A DNA stretch of 32,826 nucleotides, taken from NCBI GenBank assembly GCA_025356095.1, contig JANXUR010000116.1:1-32826 (forward strand), written 5' to 3'. The number at the start of each line of letters is the position of its first letter. Within the stretch, counting starts at the first letter, position 1. The position numbers were made by a program, and so were the translations under genes. The notes under the pieces were generated by a model. It saw only the letters and a program-made list of their open reading frames with translations, ran no database searches and was not told the origin of the DNA. Shown here piece by piece: positions 12,985-21,930 of this stretch. The DNA comes from Acidobacteriaceae bacterium (lineage in GTDB: Bacteria > Acidobacteriota > Terriglobia > Terriglobales > Acidobacteriaceae).

Positions 12985-13674
12985 TTATAGACGCTTGAGC
13001 ATGGCTTTGGCTTCGGCCAGTTGCGGAAAGAGCTTTTCCTCGGCGCGGAAGGCCGCAGGGTGGATGCAGCGACGGCTGCCGCGCAGCTTTACCGGATGCC
13101 GTAGATGCAGCATCTCGTGGTAAACGAGGTACTCCAGCGCCAGCTTAGGCACGCGGAGGTCGTCAAAGATGCGGCTTACGACGATGGCATGGTGAGCGGG
13201 ATCGTAATGGCCGAGCAGGCGGCGGGCGCGCTCGCGGCTCCAACTCATGCGCGGGCGGGCCATCAGGCCGTGGAAAAAGCGGGTATTCAGCTCTTCAAAA
13301 ATGGCTTCCAGATCGTAAACATGACCCTGCGGGCTGACCATGGGTTTGCGTCCACGCAACTGGCGCACCCGCTCGGACTGTTGTGCCATGGCCTGCGAAC
13401 TGGCCCAGCGGCGGTAGCGGGCGGCGTGCGCTGGCTCAATCGGCTTGCGGTAGAGCTTGGCAATGAGGATGTGGGCAATGGCCTCTATGGCAGTTTCGGG
13501 CGCACCTTCCAACAAGTCGCTCAGGCGGACGTAGACAACATCCTGCCGGATGCGAATCGTGTGGTTGAGGTTAGCGTAGGGATAGAACCGGATAGAGAAC
13601 ACCGGCATCGGCGCGCGCGGACGGAGCTCGCGGTAGGTGCGGTGAAAGATGGGGAGGAGGGTTTCGAGTAGCAC
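12985..13674 (-). CDS. SprT-like zinc metallopeptidase domain protein
   Basis: A 229-residue predicted cytoplasmic protein. The C-terminal half has the SprT-like layout: LEAIFEELNTRFFHGLM, then RMSWSRERARRLLGHYDPAHHAIVVSRIF, then the zinc motif YHEMLH (HExxH with the first His at residue 186), and a later His in RRCIHPAAF that could be the third ligand. The N-terminal about 95 residues are a strand-rich segment (FSIRFYPYANLNHTIRIR) followed by a helical region. They are not part of the SprT core and may form a family-specific extension. The start is a GTG without a strong ribosome binding site; ATG at 13608 (MPVFSIRF) is an alternative. SprT-like proteases in eukaryotes (Spartan) act on DNA-protein crosslinks; the bacterial role is not established. 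Confidence 0.75.
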   Translation of the reverse strand: MLLETLLPIFHRTYRELRPRAPMPVFSIRFYPYANLNHTIRIRQDVVYVRLSDLLEGAPETAIEAIAHILIAKLYRKPIEPAHAARYRRWASSQAMAQQSERVRQLRGRKPMVSPQGHVYDLEAIFEELNTRFFHGLMARPRMSWSRERARRLLGHYDPAHHAIVVSRIFDDLRVPKLALEYLVYHEMLHLRHPVKLRGSRRCIHPAAFRAEEKLFPQLAEAKAMLKRL

Positions 13675-14046: not shown

Positions 14047-14928
14047 TTACTGGAGCGGATAGGAACTGCTGCTCACGGGTTTGGTCTCTCCGTTGGCGAT
14101 TTTGATGAACTCAGCCCGCAGGACCGGGTAGGCGGGTTGGCCGTCGAGGAACTTGAAGGTAAAGTGAGTTTGGGTGCGCTGGCCCGCAGCGTTTGGAAGG
14201 TTGGTGCGGTAGCCATCGAGAGTAAACATTCGACCACCTGCGGCAGACTCTTTCGGATGATGCTTGGCCCAGCTTGACTGCTCCAAGTCGTTACTCTCCA
14301 AGGTAATGTGAAGCAGAGATTCGCCCTTCGAATTGAACATCTCCGCGAACCCGTAGACATTGTATGTGCTATAGGGCGTAAACGACGAGCTAATGACCAG
14401 CGAGTTTTCATTCAGCTTGATGCGCTCGACAACATATTCGCGCATGCCCTTGCGCACCAGGCCGCGGTGCTGAAGGTCGAGCAAGTGAAGCATGCCTGCA
14501 TCGCGGCAGGGGTCGTCCCCTGTTTCAGCGCAAACACGGGTCAGCATGGCCGCCGCCTGCCAATCGTCCGGAGCAGCTTGAGCAATGGGTGTGACGGTGG
14601 CTTTCGCAAAGGCAATATCGCCTATGTTCAGAGCGCACTCGGTGGCATATTTGGCAAGAAAGGTGTCCAAGGGCCGAGCCTGCAACAAGGATTTGAAGAT
14701 CGCGAATGCATCCGCGTACCGATGTTCCAGATAGGCCTTGGTGCCTGCTCCAAATTGCTGCTTCTGCTCGGCAGTAAGGCTGGCAAGAAGGTCGTCTTGC
14801 GATTCGATGGCTGGTGCCGCAGGGGCGACTGCTTGCGCGGAGGAGGTGGCCAGCGTCGCGACCATGAGAACTGCGTATGCCAGACTAGCAACGAGGAAGA
14901 ACGAGCGACGGCGGCCAAGTCCTGACAT
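14047..14928 (-). CDS. Secreted TPR-like protein of unknown function
   Basis: A 293-residue protein with a signal peptide (RRRSFFLVASLAYAVLMVATLATSSAQA). Residues about 45-150 are helical with a TPR-like stretch (FGAGTKAYLEHRYADAFAIF, then SLLQARPLDTFLAKYATECAL). The C-terminal half is beta-rich with no recognised motif (YVVERIKLNENSLVISSS, YNVYGFAEMFN, LLHITLESNDLEQ). The ATG at 14928 was chosen over the GTG at 14943 because GGTGA lies four bases upstream. It is a single gene divergent from the EXORDIUM-like gene. I cannot assign a function; an envelope-associated scaffold is possible. Confidence 0.6.
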   Translation of the reverse strand: MSGLGRRRSFFLVASLAYAVLMVATLATSSAQAVAPAAPAIESQDDLLASLTAEQKQQFGAGTKAYLEHRYADAFAIFKSLLQARPLDTFLAKYATECALNIGDIAFAKATVTPIAQAAPDDWQAAAMLTRVCAETGDDPCRDAGMLHLLDLQHRGLVRKGMREYVVERIKLNENSLVISSSFTPYSTYNVYGFAEMFNSKGESLLHITLESNDLEQSSWAKHHPKESAAGGRMFTLDGYRTNLPNAAGQRTQTHFTFKFLDGQPAYPVLRAEFIKIANGETKPVSSSSYPLQ

Positions 14929-15241
14929 TTTGTCACCATTCACAATAGGGATACTGAAGTTGCCAACGATTCTATACCCTCATGCTTTTGGATGCCGCTC
15001 ACATTTTGCCTGATGAAGCCCGCAGGGCATCCACGACGGCGACTGGCGCAGAGGAAACACCAAAATTAGGTAGTCTCCGCTACATTTGTTCCTGCGGCAA
15101 CCTTCGGACACGCCAAAGCCCTCGGCGCAGGCATATGATATGGCCTCAGCGCGGCAAGCGGAGAGTTTTGGAAACGTTTGTCGTTCTTAAGATGGAAGGC
15201 CACTTTACTCTTGTAAGGTCTTGCATTAAGGAGTGACAACC
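14929..15241. other. Divergent intergenic region between the TPR-like and EXORDIUM-like genes
   Basis: This 313-bp region should hold both promoters. On the minus strand a TATAGAAT element lies near 14974-14981, upstream of the 14928 gene, without a clear -35. On the plus strand, TTGTCG and TTAAGA elements occur in 15178-15195, again without a good partner, and a strong AAGGAG (15228-15233) precedes the ATG at 15242. No structured RNA was recognised. Confidence 0.35.
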
Positions 15242-16117
15242 ATGATGACCCAAGCGCAACGCAAAAGTGCCGTCCGCCGCATTGGCGGGCGGAAGGGTGT
15301 GATTCAGATTGTGCCACCTCGGCACTCAGTTCGGCAGACTTATCTGCACAAAAGCGACGCCAGCGACAAGGAGCTACTGACACGCCCGTTCGCTTCCCCT
15401 ACGGGGCCGGGCGGAGCGGCGGGCTTCCACAACGTAGCAGGCAGCCAATTGGCCGTGCCCGAGGTTACTAACATCTATATGGGGCCTTTCTGGGGCGACC
15501 AGAACTTTGTGGAAGGCTTCAGCAAGGCGGTGGTAGAGGCCGGATATCTAGATCCGCTGAAGCAACTGGGATATGGCACGGGACCCGGTAAGTACATGGG
15601 CAACATAAATGGCCCGGCGCTAAAGAAGGGATCGAAGTTCACTGACGCGCAAGCGCAGCAGACTATAACCTCGCTTCTGACTGCGGGCACGCTTAAGGCG
15701 ACCGTGAATAGCTTGTTTGTCCTGATTCTGCCGGATGGCGTGACCTCAGTGGCGGGCAAAGACCAATCTTGTAAGTCGTACTGTGGCTATCACGATGCGG
15801 TCACGTGGAATGGCATGGAAGTAGCCTACGCCGTATTGCCGTCAGCGTTGTGTAAGGGCTGCGGCGGCGAGATCGGCGACTTTACCGCGGTGTACGCGCA
15901 CGAACTAGCGGAGGCTGCGACCGATAAGGTTCCGGGGCAAGGCTGGGTCGCCGACGACGGCGAAGAGAACGGCGACCTAGAGGCATGGGTGCTGTTTGGC
16001 TGGGGCCCGGCCAGCGACCCCAAGCGCTATACGGTGCAGGGCTACTACACCAACGAACGCGGCAACACCGTGGGCGCATGGCGTGACGGTGCGGCGGCAA
16101 AAAAGAAGAAGCGGTAG
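15242..16117 (+). CDS. Bacterial EXORDIUM/phosphate-induced protein 1 (PHI-1)-like protein
   Basis: A 291-residue protein. The order of motifs matches the plant EXORDIUM/PHI-1 family: VTNIYMGPFWGD, a variable middle, LFVLILPDGVTSV, CKSYCGYHDAV, YAVLPSALCKGCGG, YAHELAEAATD (His at about residue 220) and a downstream acidic NGDLEAW. HELAE has the HExxx form of a metalloprotease-like zinc helix, and the four Cys (CxxxC and CxxC) are in conserved places. No signal peptide is evident; the N-terminus is basic (AQRKSAVRRIGGRKG) and the C-terminus ends AAAKKKKR. The ATG at 15242 has AAGGAG eight bases upstream; an in-frame GTG at 15233 overlaps that site and is rejected. Plant members respond to brassinosteroid and phosphate; the bacterial role is unknown. 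It is monocistronic. Confidence 0.7.
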   Translation: MMTQAQRKSAVRRIGGRKGVIQIVPPRHSVRQTYLHKSDASDKELLTRPFASPTGPGGAAGFHNVAGSQLAVPEVTNIYMGPFWGDQNFVEGFSKAVVEAGYLDPLKQLGYGTGPGKYMGNINGPALKKGSKFTDAQAQQTITSLLTAGTLKATVNSLFVLILPDGVTSVAGKDQSCKSYCGYHDAVTWNGMEVAYAVLPSALCKGCGGEIGDFTAVYAHELAEAATDKVPGQGWVADDGEENGDLEAWVLFGWGPASDPKRYTVQGYYTNERGNTVGAWRDGAAAKKKKR

Positions 16118-16192
16118 GGTTTGCGTCCTCTCGAATTCACCTGCTCTGGCCCGCATTCGTAGGGGCAGGGTAGGCCTTTGTCTGCTCTGCCC

Positions 16193-16780
16193 TTACTTAC
16201 GTTTCTTGCGGTCTTTCGCAAGCTGCTCCTGCTCTTGCAGTAGCTTGCGGTGGTCAGTCAGTCCAGTACTGACGGCCTCAGTAGCGTTGGTAAGAATAAA
16301 AGCGTACTCGCGCGCTTCGGCGATCGTGTCAGGGCTAGCCTTGGGGTCTGCAACCACCTCACGCATATGCCGAAGGCGTGCTGCGAACTCTTCGTCGGCA
16401 CCAATAATCAGTCGGAGTGGCTTGCGCAAGTCTTCTTTACGGTCAAGATACTGGGTGATGTTATCTTCTAACTCGTCATACAACAGCGTAAAGTCATCTA
16501 GATGATCATGGATCTCCATGCCACGTCCTGCCGCGTCTACAGCCTTGAGTGGTTGGTCGAGCGCTGCCAGACGGAGTTTAGTGAATTCCAGCAGTAGCTT
16601 GAACCGTTGTTCGGGCTGTTGTGCGCTTTCGCGAAGCTGATCGGTCTCTTCTTCGGTAAGTGGGTCGTGGCGGCGGACTTGCGCTTCCGCAGCGGGGAGC
16701 AGCACCAGAAACATAGCGGCTAGAAGCCCGACAATGACAAGCCGTGCGGTGTCCGCTGGGTTGCGCAACCGGCAATTCAC
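16193..16780 (-). CDS. Small exported helical protein, third gene of the TPR operon
   Basis: A 195-residue protein with an N-terminal hydrophobic export segment (ARLVIVGLLAAMFLVLLPAAEA). The remainder is predominantly charged and helical: LTEEETDQLRESAQ, FKLLLEFTKLRLAAL, FTLLYDELEDNITQYLDRKEDLRKPLRL, ending in a basic LAKDRKKRK. I do not recognise the family. Its GTG start overlaps the stop of the 16777 gene by four bases (GTGA), so the two are translationally coupled. It converges with the EXORDIUM-like gene, with a weak GGGCAG...CTGCCC hairpin between the two ends. Confidence 0.7.
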   Translation of the reverse strand: MNCRLRNPADTARLVIVGLLAAMFLVLLPAAEAQVRRHDPLTEEETDQLRESAQQPEQRFKLLLEFTKLRLAALDQPLKAVDAAGRGMEIHDHLDDFTLLYDELEDNITQYLDRKEDLRKPLRLIIGADEEFAARLRHMREVVADPKASPDTIAEAREYAFILTNATEAVSTGLTDHRKLLQEQEQLAKDRKKRK

Positions 16781-17250
16781 TTCTTATCCTTGGCAAACAT
16801 AGAAGCGAGTAACTCCGTCCGCACCTTTTCCAGCCGATTGATGCCCTGAGCCATCACCTGGGCATCGTCATAACTAACAATATGCTGCGTTTCTTTCATG
16901 CGGCTTATCATTTTGCGGATGGCAATCTCGGTCTCTTTCTGCCGGTGATGCGACTGTACCGACGCCGCACCCGCCTTGATCGCGTCGTTGACGCTTTCTT
17001 CCAAGTAGGCCATACCTTCGCCGCCATTGCCGTTATTCAGCAAGGTGTCGGCCAGTTCGTTTTCGCGCCGCGCCAAGTCCGTGAAAAGCGTGGCTTGGTC
17101 TTCCGGCTTGGCAGCGTCGGCGCGTTTGCGCAGATCTTCCAGATCAGCAGGGCCGCCAGCGTGTACCAGTGTGGCCGCTCCAGCGATCAGGAGCAAAAGA
17201 CATAAGCGGAGAATCAGATTTGCCAAAGCGCGACGATGCATAAGCCTCAT
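16777..17250 (-). CDS. Small exported helical protein, second gene of the TPR operon
   Basis: A 157-residue protein with a signal peptide (ALANLILRLCLLLLIAGAATLVHA) followed by an all-helical region: DLEDLRKRADAAKPEDQATLF, ARRENELADTLLNNG, MAYLEESVNDAIKAGAAS, EIAIRKMISRMKETQHIV. The spacing of these helices could form one or two degenerate TPR-like hairpins. Family unknown. The ATG at 17250 overlaps the upstream TPR gene stop as ATGA, and its own stop overlaps the next gene's GTG, so all three genes form a coupled cistron set. ATG at 17241 is a less likely start. Confidence 0.7.
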   Translation of the reverse strand: MRLMHRRALANLILRLCLLLLIAGAATLVHAGGPADLEDLRKRADAAKPEDQATLFTDLARRENELADTLLNNGNGGEGMAYLEESVNDAIKAGAASVQSHHRQKETEIAIRKMISRMKETQHIVSYDDAQVMAQGINRLEKVRTELLASMFAKDKK

Positions 17251-18761
17251 TTTTTCGGTTCCAGTGTGATGATGCGGTGCCGTGCAGCCCACTCCTGATC
17301 AGGATACTGCCCTTGGGCAGTTTGAAGGAAGTGGCGATAGGCTTCAACTGCCTCTTTTCGTAGGTGCAAGTGGTCGAGGCAAGTGGCGCGCAGAAAATAT
17401 CCGATGGGCAGGTCAGGCAAGTACCTGGCGCGCTCGTCCATAGCCTTCAGCGCGAGCTCATACTGCATATTCTCGGCTGCGGCAGAGGCCAGGTCTCCCC
17501 ACACCGGGCCCGACTTCGGGTCGAGCTGCGCCGCTGCCAGCAATTCGGCTTGCGCATCGGCAAACCGCTTTTGCTTCAGCACGACAATGCCCAGCAGGTG
17601 GTGCAACTCAGGGTCGCGCGGTGTCGCTTGCAATTGCTGGCGATAAAGCGCTTCAGCCTCGCTCAGCTTGCCCGCTGCGATGTAGAGCGAGCCGAGTTCC
17701 AGCACCGATGCCGCATCCGCGCCTCCGAGGTAGATGCCAGTTTCATATTCGGTGGCGGCTTCGTCTTTGCGCGCCAGAATGGCTCTCGCTGCGGGGTCCG
17801 TAGCAGCAGCCTTGGAAGCAGGCGAGCCGAACGCAATGGGCGGCGCGGGCGGAGCAGCAGACGTCGCTTCTGCCGTGGACGCCAGCACGCGCGCAAGCTG
17901 AATATGCGCGGCTGCCTGGTCAGGATGTGTCGCGATGAACTGCCGTAACACTGCTTCGGCCTGTGGCAGCCGCTGGCTGCGCATATACAAGTTGGCCAGG
18001 CCGATCAGGGCGTCTGCTGAAGCGGCTGCGTCTGGGGCGGATTTCAATGCTGCCCGGTATCGCTGCTCGGCCCCAAGCGCATCCTTCTGCCTTTCCGCAA
18101 GGGCCGCGCCAAGCAATTGGCTACCCACCTGCTTGGGGTCGGCTTCCGTGGCGTGGTCGTAGGAGGCGAGCGCTGCCGCAGGGTCGTGCGACTCTTGCAC
18201 GCGGCCAAGTGCGATCCACGCGCGGGCCAGATTCTGCTCGGGCTTGGACTCTGGCTTGAGCTGGGTGGCCGCGGAGAGAAACTTCTCAGCGTCATTGCGA
18301 GCGTCGGCGGAAGACGTGGCATCATTCTTGCTGGCCAGCGCGAGCCCCAGATGCAGTTGCGCCTCAAACACATTCGGCTTGAGCGCAACCGCTTTGCGAT
18401 AGGCGGCAATAGCGTCGTCGGTGCGGCCAGAGGCGTCGTGAAGGTATCCTAGGTCGTACCAGGCCCGAAAGTTGGTCGCATCCAGTGTGACGGCCTGCTT
18501 CAGCAGCGGCTCGGCGGTAGCGTAGTCAGGCTTGCCAGCGGCGTCCAGTTTCTCTAGCGCGGCTTCGGCCTTCTCGGTGGCTTGGTCAGATGGAGAAGCC
18601 TCGTCGGCAACCTTACGGTGGCGGATGGTAGTGTGCTCACCCAGCGCAGGCTTAGGCGCTTGCGCGAACGCGGGGGCAACTGCCAGAGCAGCAGCGAAAC
18701 CTAGCGCGAATATGGCGGTGAGCAGTCGCATGGTTAAAAAGCGTCGAGCTACAAACTTCAT
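17247..18761 (-). CDS. Exported tetratricopeptide-repeat protein, first gene of the operon
   Basis: A 504-residue protein with a signal peptide (RLLTAIFALGFAAALAVAPAFA) and about ten TPR units. Clear ones are AWYDLGYLHDASGRTDDAIAAY, GLANLYMRSQRLPQAEAVL, ELGSLYIAAGKLSEAEALY and HLLGIVVLKQKRFADAQAEL. A low-complexity Ala/Pro linker interrupts the array in the middle (STAEATSAAPPAPPIAFG). TPR arrays mediate protein-protein contacts, so this is probably the scaffold for the two small exported proteins encoded downstream. ATG at 18761 is used; ATG at 18731 (MRLLTAIF) is an equally simple alternative. Phased 11-bp repeats lie upstream. Confidence 0.8.
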   Translation of the reverse strand: MKFVARRFLTMRLLTAIFALGFAAALAVAPAFAQAPKPALGEHTTIRHRKVADEASPSDQATEKAEAALEKLDAAGKPDYATAEPLLKQAVTLDATNFRAWYDLGYLHDASGRTDDAIAAYRKAVALKPNVFEAQLHLGLALASKNDATSSADARNDAEKFLSAATQLKPESKPEQNLARAWIALGRVQESHDPAAALASYDHATEADPKQVGSQLLGAALAERQKDALGAEQRYRAALKSAPDAAASADALIGLANLYMRSQRLPQAEAVLRQFIATHPDQAAAHIQLARVLASTAEATSAAPPAPPIAFGSPASKAAATDPAARAILARKDEAATEYETGIYLGGADAASVLELGSLYIAAGKLSEAEALYRQQLQATPRDPELHHLLGIVVLKQKRFADAQAELLAAAQLDPKSGPVWGDLASAAAENMQYELALKAMDERARYLPDLPIGYFLRATCLDHLHLRKEAVEAYRHFLQTAQGQYPDQEWAARHRIITLEPKK

Positions 18762-18904: not shown

Positions 18905-21883
18905 TTAGGAATGCGCGAGCAGCGGGCCGAGAAATCGGCCAGTGTGCGAGTCGGGGTTCGCGGCGACATCCTCTGGCGTGCCTGCGACCACAATCTTGCC
19001 GCCCCGGTCGCCGCCTTCCGGACCCAAATCAATCACCCAGTCAGCGGTTTTAATCACTTCCAAATTGTGCTCGACAATTAAGATAGACCCGCCCGCTTCA
19101 ATCAGTCTGCGAAACGCGGCCAGCAGTTTGCTGATGTCGTCATAATGCAGGCCAGTGGTAGGCTCGTCCAATATATAGAGCGTGTGGCGTCGCGCTTTCG
19201 TCACTGTGCCGTCAGCGGCCGTGATAGCTTTGGCACGCGGCTGTAAGTGCGCGGCCAGTTTTAGGCGCTGCGCCTCGCCACCGCTCAGCGTAGTAGCCGA
19301 CTGGCCGAGACGGAGATAGCCGAGCCCAACATCTTCCAGCGGCTTCAACTTGTCCATAATCTTCGGGATGCCCGCAAAAAATTGCAGTCCTTCTTTCACG
19401 GTAAGTTGCAGCACCTCATAAATACTGTGCTGCTTATACTTGACTTCTAGCACTTGCGGCTTGAAGCGCGTGCCTTTGCACTCTTCGCAGATCAGTTCGA
19501 CGTCGGCGAGAAACTGCATCTCCACGGTGACGGTGCCATCGCCCTGGCAGGTTTCGCAGCGCCCGCCCGGGATATTAAAAGAGAAGTGACCGGGGCCAAA
19601 GCCGCGCTTGTGGGCATCTGCCTGACTGGCGAACAACTCGCGAATCGCATCGAACGCCTTGATGTATGTAACTGGATTAGAACGCGGTGTGCGGCCAATG
19701 GGAGACTGATCCACCATGACAACATCATCCAGATGCTGTACTCCGGTGATAGTCTTCCAACTGCTTCCTTCGCTCGCCGGCGACTCACCAAGTTCGGCAT
19801 TTAACGCTCTGAAGATGACCTCATGCACCAAACTTGACTTCCCGGATCCAGATACCCCAGTGACTGCGACTAACATACCAAGAGGCAGAGTAACGTCAAT
19901 GCCCTTGACGTTATGGGACCGTGCGCCGCTAACCACGATGCGTTGCTTGCCGGGCTGACGGCGTGCGGTGGGCACTTGAATCCGCAAGTCACCGGAAAGA
20001 TAGCGGCCAGTTAGTGATGCGGGCTGCTTTAGTATCTCAGCATAAGTTCCTTGGGCGATGACTTTGCCGCCATGCTCCCCAGCACCCGGGCCAAGGTCAA
20101 GAATGCGGTCGGCCGAACGCATGATGTCCGGATCGTGTTCGACGACAACAATCGTATTGCCTAAGTCGCGCAGACCTTCCAGAATGCCAATTAGGCGGTG
20201 AGTGTCGCGGGTGTGCAAGCCAATGGAAGGTTCATCCAGTACATAGAGTGTGCCAACCAGACGCGAGCCGAGCGAAGTAGCTAACTGAATGCGCTGGGCT
20301 TCGCCACCACTCAAAGTGGACGCCATGCGGTCGAGCGTCAGGTACTCCAGCCCAACTTCTTGCAGAAAACCTAAGCGTTCGCGGATCTCCTGTAAGAGCC
20401 GCTCCGCCATTGCAGCTTCTTGCGGGCGCAACTCTAAGTGAGCAAAAAAGCGTGCCGAGTTCTCGACGGTCATAGCGCAGACTTGGCAGATATCGGCTCC
20501 GCCCACCTTCACTTGCCGGGCCTCTGGCTTAAGTCGCGTCCCGTTGCACATGGAGCAGGTGGCGTACCCGCGATATCGGCTGAGGAATACGCGGATGTGC
20601 ATCTTGTACTTCTTGCGTTCCAAGTAGTGGAAGAAACCGCGGACGCCGAGGAAACGGCCCTTGCCGTTCAGCACTAAGTTCCAATGGCTTTCTTCGAGCT
20701 CTGCCCAAGGCACGTCCAGCGGAATATCTTCGGTCTTGCAGAATTTCTTAAGGTCGCTCTGAATTGGACGGTACTTCGGTTTTGTCCACGGCTCGATGGC
20801 ACCTTGGTCAATGCTGAGTCCGGGATTAGGGATGACTAAGTTAAGGTCTAAGTCAATGGTGTTGCCGAAGCCATGGCACCGCGGGCAAGCGCCGTACGGG
20901 TTGTTAAAAGAAAATAGGCGCGGCTCCGGCTCGTCGTACGCGATAAGGCACTGCTTGCACTCGAAGCGCTGCGAGTAGCGGAGCTGCTGCGGAGCTGCTT
21001 CTTTGCCGCCTTCGGCAGAGCGGGGCGCAGTCTCAAAGATCACTTCGCCAGATTCGCGGTAGCCGGCTTCAACCGCATCCACCAGGCGGGCGCGTATGTC
21101 GGACGCAACGGCCAAGCGGTCAATCAGCACATACACTGGCTCGGCAAAGTTCAGGTCGAGCAAAGACTCAGGCGACGAAAATTCAAAGATGCTACCCGCC
21201 TGATACAGCCGATTAAAGCCGCGCTTGCGTAGCTCAAACAGGCGCTCTTTCGTAGCCTCCGGAAGCGATTGCACGAGTAGAGGAGTGTTGTCTTCCGCTT
21301 TGGCAGTCTTCTTCGCCTTAGCAGACTTAGCCGCAAGCTTCTTCCTGGGTGGGTCGTCCTCTCCCTCTACGCGGTTTTCCTCGAGCGCGTTCGCAGGCTG
21401 GGTTGCGGTTGCGTGAATCGGAAACAGCACATTAAACCGTGTGCCCTCAGGGTGGGCAAGAATCGCTTCGGCAACGTGATCCACTGTATCCTTGCGAAGC
21501 TCGTTGCCACAGTTGCGGCAGTAGGTGCGGCCCACGCGCGCAAACAGCAGGCGCATGTAGTCGTGAATCTCAGTGGCGGTGGCAACGGTGGAGCGCGGAT
21601 TCCGTGTGGAGTTCTTCTGCTTAATGGCGACTGCGGGCGCGATGCCTTCGATCGAATCGGCGTCGGGCTTTTCAATGCGCTCTAAAAATTGGCGAGCATA
21701 GGCGCTGAGCGACTCCACGTAGCGGCGCTGGCCCTCAGCGTAAATCGTGTCGAAAGCGAGCGAGGATTTGCCCGATCCGCTGACGCCAGTGACCACGGTC
21801 AAGGCATTGTGCGGAATTTCGACGTCAATATTCTTCAAGTTGTGGACGCGGGCACCGCGCACCACGATGCTGTCATTGGCCAT
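18905..21883 (-). CDS. uvrA: Excinuclease ABC subunit A
   Basis: A 992-residue DNA-damage sensor ATPase of nucleotide excision repair, which loads UvrB onto lesions. Two ABC ATPase halves are visible, each with a Walker [10 protein letters not shown] and signature LSGGEAQR, plus DEPSIGLH and DEPTTGLH Walker B regions. Zinc modules include CRNCGN, CKQC with CPRCHGFG, and CETCQGDG with CEECKGTRF. An unusual Lys/Ala-rich insert (about residues 175-200, with [22 protein letters not shown]) lies in the UvrB-binding region after the first zinc module. ATG at 21883 is preferred; a TTG ten codons upstream (21913) has no ribosome binding site. It has its own promoter and a leader hairpin. Confidence 0.96.
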
Positions 21884-21930
21884 GCTGACTGCCGATTCCT
21901 TTGCCTCTGCCAAACCACTGGAAGTTTCGT

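Follow-up and report, generated by a model that had tools for sequence, protein, structure and literature searches.

A Candidate Cell-Envelope Module of Acidobacteriota Made Up of Two Homologous Helical Proteins and a TPR Protein Family

Organization of the Locus

The window, that is, the whole 32,826-nucleotide stretch of Acidobacteriaceae DNA analyzed, carries on its minus strand three genes that we named, in their order from uvrA, T, S1, and S2. T (17247..18761) encodes a putatively exported TPR protein of 504 aa, recognized from its translation, its Pfam TPR matches, and a family-specific C-terminal region (about residues 410–504) defined by a signature profile. S1 (16777..17250) encodes a 157-aa and S2 (16193..16780) a 195-aa protein, both predicted to be exported and all-helical on the basis of their translations and AlphaFold2 models, together with homology to S2 for the former and relatives for the latter. 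The overlaps proposed in the first-pass annotation can be read directly in the sequence: the T stop and S1 start codons share ATGA (17250–17247), and the S1 stop and S2 start codons share GTGA (16780–16777). T runs from ATG 18761 to its stop at 17247; its ORF is open as far as 18869, and an internal methionine at codon 11 is as good a start. S1 runs from ATG 17250 to 16777, the longest ORF beginning at GTG 17292, and S2 from GTG 16780 to 16193. S2 is present in a single copy in this genome.

The module is preceded by uvrA (18905..21913, minus strand; NCBIfam TIGR00630 above cut-off), its usual upstream neighbor in the class of the window only. The usual downstream neighbor is a SprT-like gene (12985..13674, minus strand), identified by its conserved downstream position and a Pfam SprT-like match (E 3e-5, 24.2 bits) slightly below the 25.6 cut-off. 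In the window, this gene is displaced by about 2.5 kb from S2. The intervening region (14047–16117) contains two genes for which BLAST found no match in the 40 other relative loci: an ORF of 294 aa on the plus strand (15233–16117) and one of 298 aa on the minus strand with a weak TPR match (14047–14943). A scan for promoters and terminators counted one promoter-like site versus 1.8 in shuffled sequences and 11 terminator-like sites versus 6.4 (SD 2.5). A hairpin is located at the end of S2 (16159–16196), but its thymine run is on the plus strand.

T, S1, and S2 Proteins Carry Putative Export Signals

The export signals noticed at first sight in the three products recur across their families. 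A hydrophobic N-terminus, defined by a simple rule and not by SignalP (an N-terminal stretch of 13 residues whose hydropathy averages 1.8 or more, applied to longest ORFs), was found in 82% of 119 T, 90% of 137 S1, and 90% of 145 S2 proteins. The same rule retained 1% of 72 UvrA and 3% of 66 SprT controls. Such N-termini are also common in the fused proteins described below and rare in ArgS and GcvT. These features suggest that T, S1, and S2 are exported. As lipobox-like motifs are rare (2/119 T, 3/141 S1, and 4/145 S2), soluble or N-terminally anchored periplasmic proteins seem likelier than lipoproteins. We also considered a basic C-terminal tail as a feature of the module. Of the T proteins, 46% have at least five K or R residues among the last 15, as have 39% of the S2 proteins, compared with 5% of other genes, but this is not common to all three, S1 reaching 8%.

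The Window S1 and S2 Reach No Family Cut-Off in the Libraries Searched

As previously proposed, only the TPR array is recognized: among the three window proteins, T alone passes a Pfam cut-off (TPR_19, 76.5 bits vs. 25; TPR_16, 71.3 vs. 32.7), and in NCBIfam all three stay below cut-off. The window S1 and S2 match no Pfam, NCBIfam, PADLOC, or PHROGs family above cut-off. At E up to 0.01, neither they nor one fusion had a match in PADLOC and PHROGs, nor did T in PADLOC, the one of these two libraries in which it was searched. We extended the Pfam search to other members at E up to 0.1. No family was found in more than five of 36 S1 members among the 25 of 38 families listed, nor in more than three of 35 S2 members among 25 of 47. 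The best of these listed matches was GrpE, for one S2 (E 1e-4). In NCBIfam, four families were matched, each by at most two of the 60 S1 members scanned; the NCBIfam scan of S2 covered the window protein. DUF6657 (PF20362) weakly matches residues 60–152 of S2, scoring 15.7 bits where the cut-off is 27; at E up to 0.1, a single one of the 35 S2 members had this match. For the distant relatives that we tried, whether S1, S2, or fused, all matches were sub-threshold. We therefore rejected the assignment of S1 or S2 to a known family, the window proteins reaching no cut-off and the matches of other members being scattered.

AlphaFold2 predicts both proteins as all-helical with high confidence (pLDDT 93.5 for S1 and 92.2 for S2), and the two models show a similar order of helices past the N-terminal segment. 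Profile searches against the PDB retrieved mostly designed helical proteins and no convincing relative: the best S1 match had an E value of 4e-6 (8fbo), no single stretch passing, and the best S2 match 0.007. The Foldseek and VIA-align lists contain only generic helical bundles and repeats. The best Foldseek E values were 0.016 for S1, against designed helical repeats, and 0.23 for S2, and the best VIA-align Z scores (12.9 for S1 and 12.0 for S2) are in the noise range for helical proteins. In a viral structure library, S2 had no match under E 0.001, the best being 0.011. For these modeled structures, the PDB fold matches thus appear to be at noise level for helical bundles, and they rule out no fold family.

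Their small size, export-like N-termini, and all-helical models could make S1 and S2 periplasmic chaperones of the Spy/CpxP type, i.e., small helical stress proteins. The S2 domain moreover opens with a D-P-L-T-x-x-E stretch, which we take to resemble the LTxxQ motif of Spy/CpxP. However, the window S1 and S2 have no such match in Pfam or NCBIfam, even at E up to 1, a range in which HMMER filters drop most weak matches, and this family is also absent from the Pfam listings of the 36 S1 members (25 of 38 families) and of the 35 S2 members (25 of 47). With regard to the hairpin-cradle fold of Spy/CpxP, the fold searches listed generic helical bundles and repeats, at noise level. We consider this assignment improbable.

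The module diverges rapidly. Among 43 five-gene loci, mean pairwise identity was 67% for UvrA, 61% for SprT, 37% for T, and, measured over their domains, 31% for S2 and 28% for S1. This fast evolution may explain the missing annotation. Of 61 genomes, that of the window included, single-sequence queries detected S2 in 52 and S1 in 32; with profiles, an S1 ORF was found adjoining S2 in 38 of 41 fetched loci, the window among them. A short-pattern scan of 84,980 species, which has a short reach, confirmed 89 S2 relatives; the 80 kept all have Acidobacteriota-type titles, mostly Terriglobia. An earlier scan with the window S1 confirmed none of 51 candidates.

S1 and S2 Are Homologous and Sometimes Fused

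Profile–profile comparison by hhalign related S1 to S2 with a probability of 97.8% (E 1.3e-12) using a broad S1 alignment and of 80% (E 1.4e-5) using narrow alignments. As a control, comparing S1 and S2 with the T C-terminus gave 0.8% and 2.4%; we accordingly rejected an origin of S1 and S2 as TPR offshoots, as far as this region of T is concerned. Similarly, the S1 profile matched 102 of 145 S2 ORFs at E <1e-3 (best 2e-10) and none of 135 TPR ORFs. In the examination of the joint losses described below, the narrow S1 profile gave an E value of 0.001 to one T ORF (L321), for which the broad profile gave nothing. In a FastTree phylogeny of 193 of the 318 extracted domains, based on a low-identity alignment, one change separates an S1-like side, grouping S1 and the N-terminal halves of fused proteins, from an S2-like side, grouping S2 and the C-terminal halves. 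These comparisons show S1 and S2 to be homologs; the best explanation is that a single helical domain was duplicated long ago.

The fusion of S1 and S2 in one ORF was observed in 19 genomes from six families, after removal of a twentieth candidate (L086) due to start-site over-extension. T was not found in 16 of these genomes; in the three others, all from one family (f19; L141, L170, and L176), T is followed by the fused gene. One fusion, of 544 aa, contains additional sequence (L120:6304-7938). Another protein, of 482 aa (L194:4120-5568), combines FecR and Ig-like domains with a weak match to S1 (E 5e-6) and is probably not a true S1.

T Proteins of Different Loci Look Like One Family

The T signature profile was built from the last 95 residues of 74 T proteins encoded next to uvrA or sprT; the window T is one of these training sequences and matches the profile by construction. 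All 45 held-out T proteins scored at least 19.3 bits and the 16 other TPR ORFs at most 12.5, the best ORF outside the test set reaching 16.0 bits. Since a profile trained in the uvrA/sprT context recovers the held-out T, the TPR genes found beside S1 and S2 in different settings look like members of one family rather than any TPR gene. Throughout the phylum, signature scores show a gap between 73 and 47 bits, which we used to define the presence of T.

The Module Occurs in Several Genomic Settings

We compiled a census of 181 loci from 171 genomes, window included, selected for S1 or S2 matches; five of the loci held neither gene. S1 and S2 are neighbors in 126 loci. In 119 loci, each from a different genome, the end of a T gene is located upstream of S1, S2, or both, at a distance of no more than 300 bases. 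The usual order in the relative loci fetched is uvrA-T-S1-S2-sprT. Settings vary with lineage. In the class of the window, 79 loci are linked to uvrA or sprT. In family f30, 15 loci are linked to gcvT. Finally, 30 loci are linked to argS, a single one of which has a T (L092), two others being cut by the contig end. As the module occurs in at least three settings, uvrA, sprT, gcvT, and argS are bystanders. A module tied to uvrA or sprT was thus rejected, gcvT and argS taking their place elsewhere.

The frequency of the uvrA-T-S1-S2-sprT order in the class of the window could be taken as a sign that S1 and S2 serve DNA repair or proteolysis together with UvrA and the SprT-like protein. The location of the module beside gcvT or argS in other lineages largely contradicts this proposal, as does the export predicted for T, S1, and S2 and not for UvrA and SprT, and we hold it to be very improbable.

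Two rearrangements were noticed in addition. Three loci from the family of the window (L139, L234, and L235, in genomes G374, G434, and G204) contain a second S1 copy outside the module. In family f92, a separated S2 lies near phosphatidylserine synthase and decarboxylase genes (L182:4808-7063; in L175 by sequence resemblance only).

S1 and S2 Are Coinherited, T Is a Frequent Partner

In a sample of 396 Acidobacteriota genomes, raw counts were 116 genomes for S2, 96 (narrow profile) or 136 (broad profile) for S1, and 93 for T. In the final tally, S1 and S2 are together in 127 genomes and either one alone in none. T is present in 90 of these 127 and in three genomes without S1 and S2; it was not found in 37. 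The tally leaves out nine genomes whose S1 matches had E values between 4e-5 and 7e-4, as well as four (G070, G097, G255, and G265) whose S2 matches were weak. It includes 15 genomes in which it took a broader profile, run on the loci fetched for S1, to see S2. As these 15 S2 were sought beside S1, co-occurrence was favored; without them, 112 genomes have both genes and 15 only S1. As the whole-genome searches scored the best 8–13 candidates per genome, single absences may be misses. Furthermore, these genomes are related and the counts are not independent events; Fisher tests on co-occurrence ignore this relatedness and are not probabilities of interaction. Coevolution added no further support: mirror-tree partial correlations within the trio (0.17–0.44) are no higher than with the SprT control (0.22–0.43).

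The loss of S1 and S2 is joint. In three genomes from three genera of the family of the window, 99–100% complete, T directly precedes sprT, with no S1 or S2 found between them or genome-wide. The order is uvrA-T-sprT in G012, uvrA is adjacent on the other strand in G390, and the contig ends at T in G319. These three genomes seem to have lost both genes, which indicates that the pair is dispensable there. Conversely, four genomes (G041, G043, G037, and G053) have a uvrA-S1-S2-sprT locus without T, as has G044, where uvrA is cut by the end of the stretch. In these five, the T profile applied to all first-look candidates gave nothing above 32 bits; six T-carrying control genomes, three of them outside the profile, gave 81–116 bits.

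In 11 genomes of the sample, S1 and S2 are on different contigs and both are kept (G189, G289, G321, G329, G345, G368, G376, G384, G399, G429, and G440). We left out two similar cases in which S1 or S2 is near a contig end (G131 and G360). All 11 genomes have a T, which adjoins S1 in six of them and S2 in the other five. In three further genomes (G016, G032, and G034), S2 has moved away and S1 is still with uvrA-T.

These data qualify the tight coupling from which a fixed stoichiometry had been proposed. According to longest-ORF starts, S1 and S2 overlap or are at most 60 bases apart in 117 of 125 neighboring pairs, and the exact 4-base overlap is found in just 38. As these overlaps vary and 37 of the 127 genomes lack T, a strict trio of fixed stoichiometry is too strong a claim; nor is the trio obligate, three genomes keeping T without S1 and S2. 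What holds in other genomes is the strict S1–S2 pair with T as a frequent partner, and the small genes do not occur independently of T in most genomes. As 4-base gene overlaps are common in bacteria and the exact overlaps vary here, the arrangement might also be ascribed to chance in compact genomes, the trio being meaningless. The several settings, the fusions, the joint loss, and the coretention of separated genes contradict this, leaving it a negligible probability.

Discussion

At the level of sequence, the comparison of loci and genomes establishes the several settings, the homology and fusion of S1 and S2, their joint loss, their coretention when unlinked, and the existence of one T family. 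The first impression of a conserved unit combining a TPR protein with two helical proteins, all probably exported and none found described, is upheld. S1 and S2 almost certainly constitute a functional unit, and a conserved cell-envelope module is the best explanation for T, S1, and S2.

The place of T in this unit is less firm. S1 and S2 alone might be the working unit, for instance as the two domains of a periplasmic chaperone or binding protein that some genomes make as one polypeptide. T would then be a distinct exported TPR protein with nothing but the transcript in common with them. The strict association of S1 with S2 and the optional presence of T are in line with this proposal, as are the persistence of T without them in three genomes and its absence from 16 of the 19 genomes with fusions and from 29 of the 30 argS-linked loci (two of these being cut by the contig end). 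However, T accompanies the small genes through different settings, and its position beside S1 or S2 in each of the 11 genomes where these are separated is not predicted by a merely shared transcript. We consider a unit reduced to S1 and S2 rather unlikely. The best reading is that S1 and S2 would form an exported pair that usually has a TPR protein of its own, T, as a scaffold.

In the mechanism that we propose, S1 and S2, once exported, would most likely form a pseudo-symmetric heterodimer, which would be a single polypeptide in some lineages. T would be a dedicated exported TPR solenoid whose conserved C-terminal end probably holds this pair. It might present the pair to an envelope client and would act not as an enzyme but as a scaffold or adaptor. 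Fusion and co-occurrence suggest physical contact among the three proteins, and the TPR fold suggests the scaffold role of T. Taken as a whole, this mechanism of a scaffold plus a heterodimer has, in our estimation, an even chance of being correct. We give the same middling weight to the broader proposal that Acidobacteriota possess an ancient, widespread, and undescribed envelope complex, composed of a duplicated helical domain (S1–S2) and a TPR scaffold dedicated to it. The parts of this complex would remain associated despite neighbor change, separation, and fusion, an exported VWA-domain protein being perhaps a fourth part in some lineages.

Acidobacteriota count among the most abundant bacteria in soil, and, to our knowledge, little of their envelope biology has been resolved experimentally. 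The module offers a concrete target, with two new protein families and a recognizable partner family, and its natural fusions, losses, and separations make the interaction and function of T, S1, and S2 directly testable. We found no description of it in the open-access literature; the parts available of PMC9693552 and PMC8528874 contain nothing on it.

Comparison with Known Systems

T resembles exported TPR scaffold proteins such as PilW/Tgl, GltE, PrsT, MamA, and LapB, whose NCBIfam models share TPR arrays with it and give sub-threshold matches. These scores are far below the cut-offs (e.g., 88 of 312 bits for PrsT, 71 of 200 for MamA, and 53 of 154 for PilW), and T differs from these proteins by its own C-terminal signature and its S1 and S2 partners.

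The Bat-type VWA-TPR systems (BatA/BatB/BatC) also include an exported TPR protein, and in 12 of the 181 loci S1 or S2 is closely followed, on the same strand, by a VWA-like gene. In the other 169 loci, window included, the profile found no VWA-like ORF, and T scores only 15.7 of 175 bits against BatC. We know of no Bat counterpart of S1 and S2. The 12 loci (L112, L125, L175, L198, L086, L087, L089, L091, L093, L094, L239, and L240) contain thirteen VWA-like ORFs starting at most 1.7 kb downstream, four of which were confirmed as TIGR03436. This downstream zone represents 7% of the strand-specific sequence. The VWA profile (E <1e-4) was built from four seeds chosen among ORFs noticed near S1 and S2, and the family has 9–41 copies per genome in the ten genomes checked; because of this abundance and this choice of seeds, the VWA link is a lead only.

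Finally, S1 and S2 share with Spy/CpxP a small size, export-like N-termini, and a helical structure, and differ from them by the lack of a profile match and by being a coinherited, sometimes fused pair. TPR scaffolds acting with partners are a known kind of system, in which the S1, S2, and T families appear to be new to the libraries searched.
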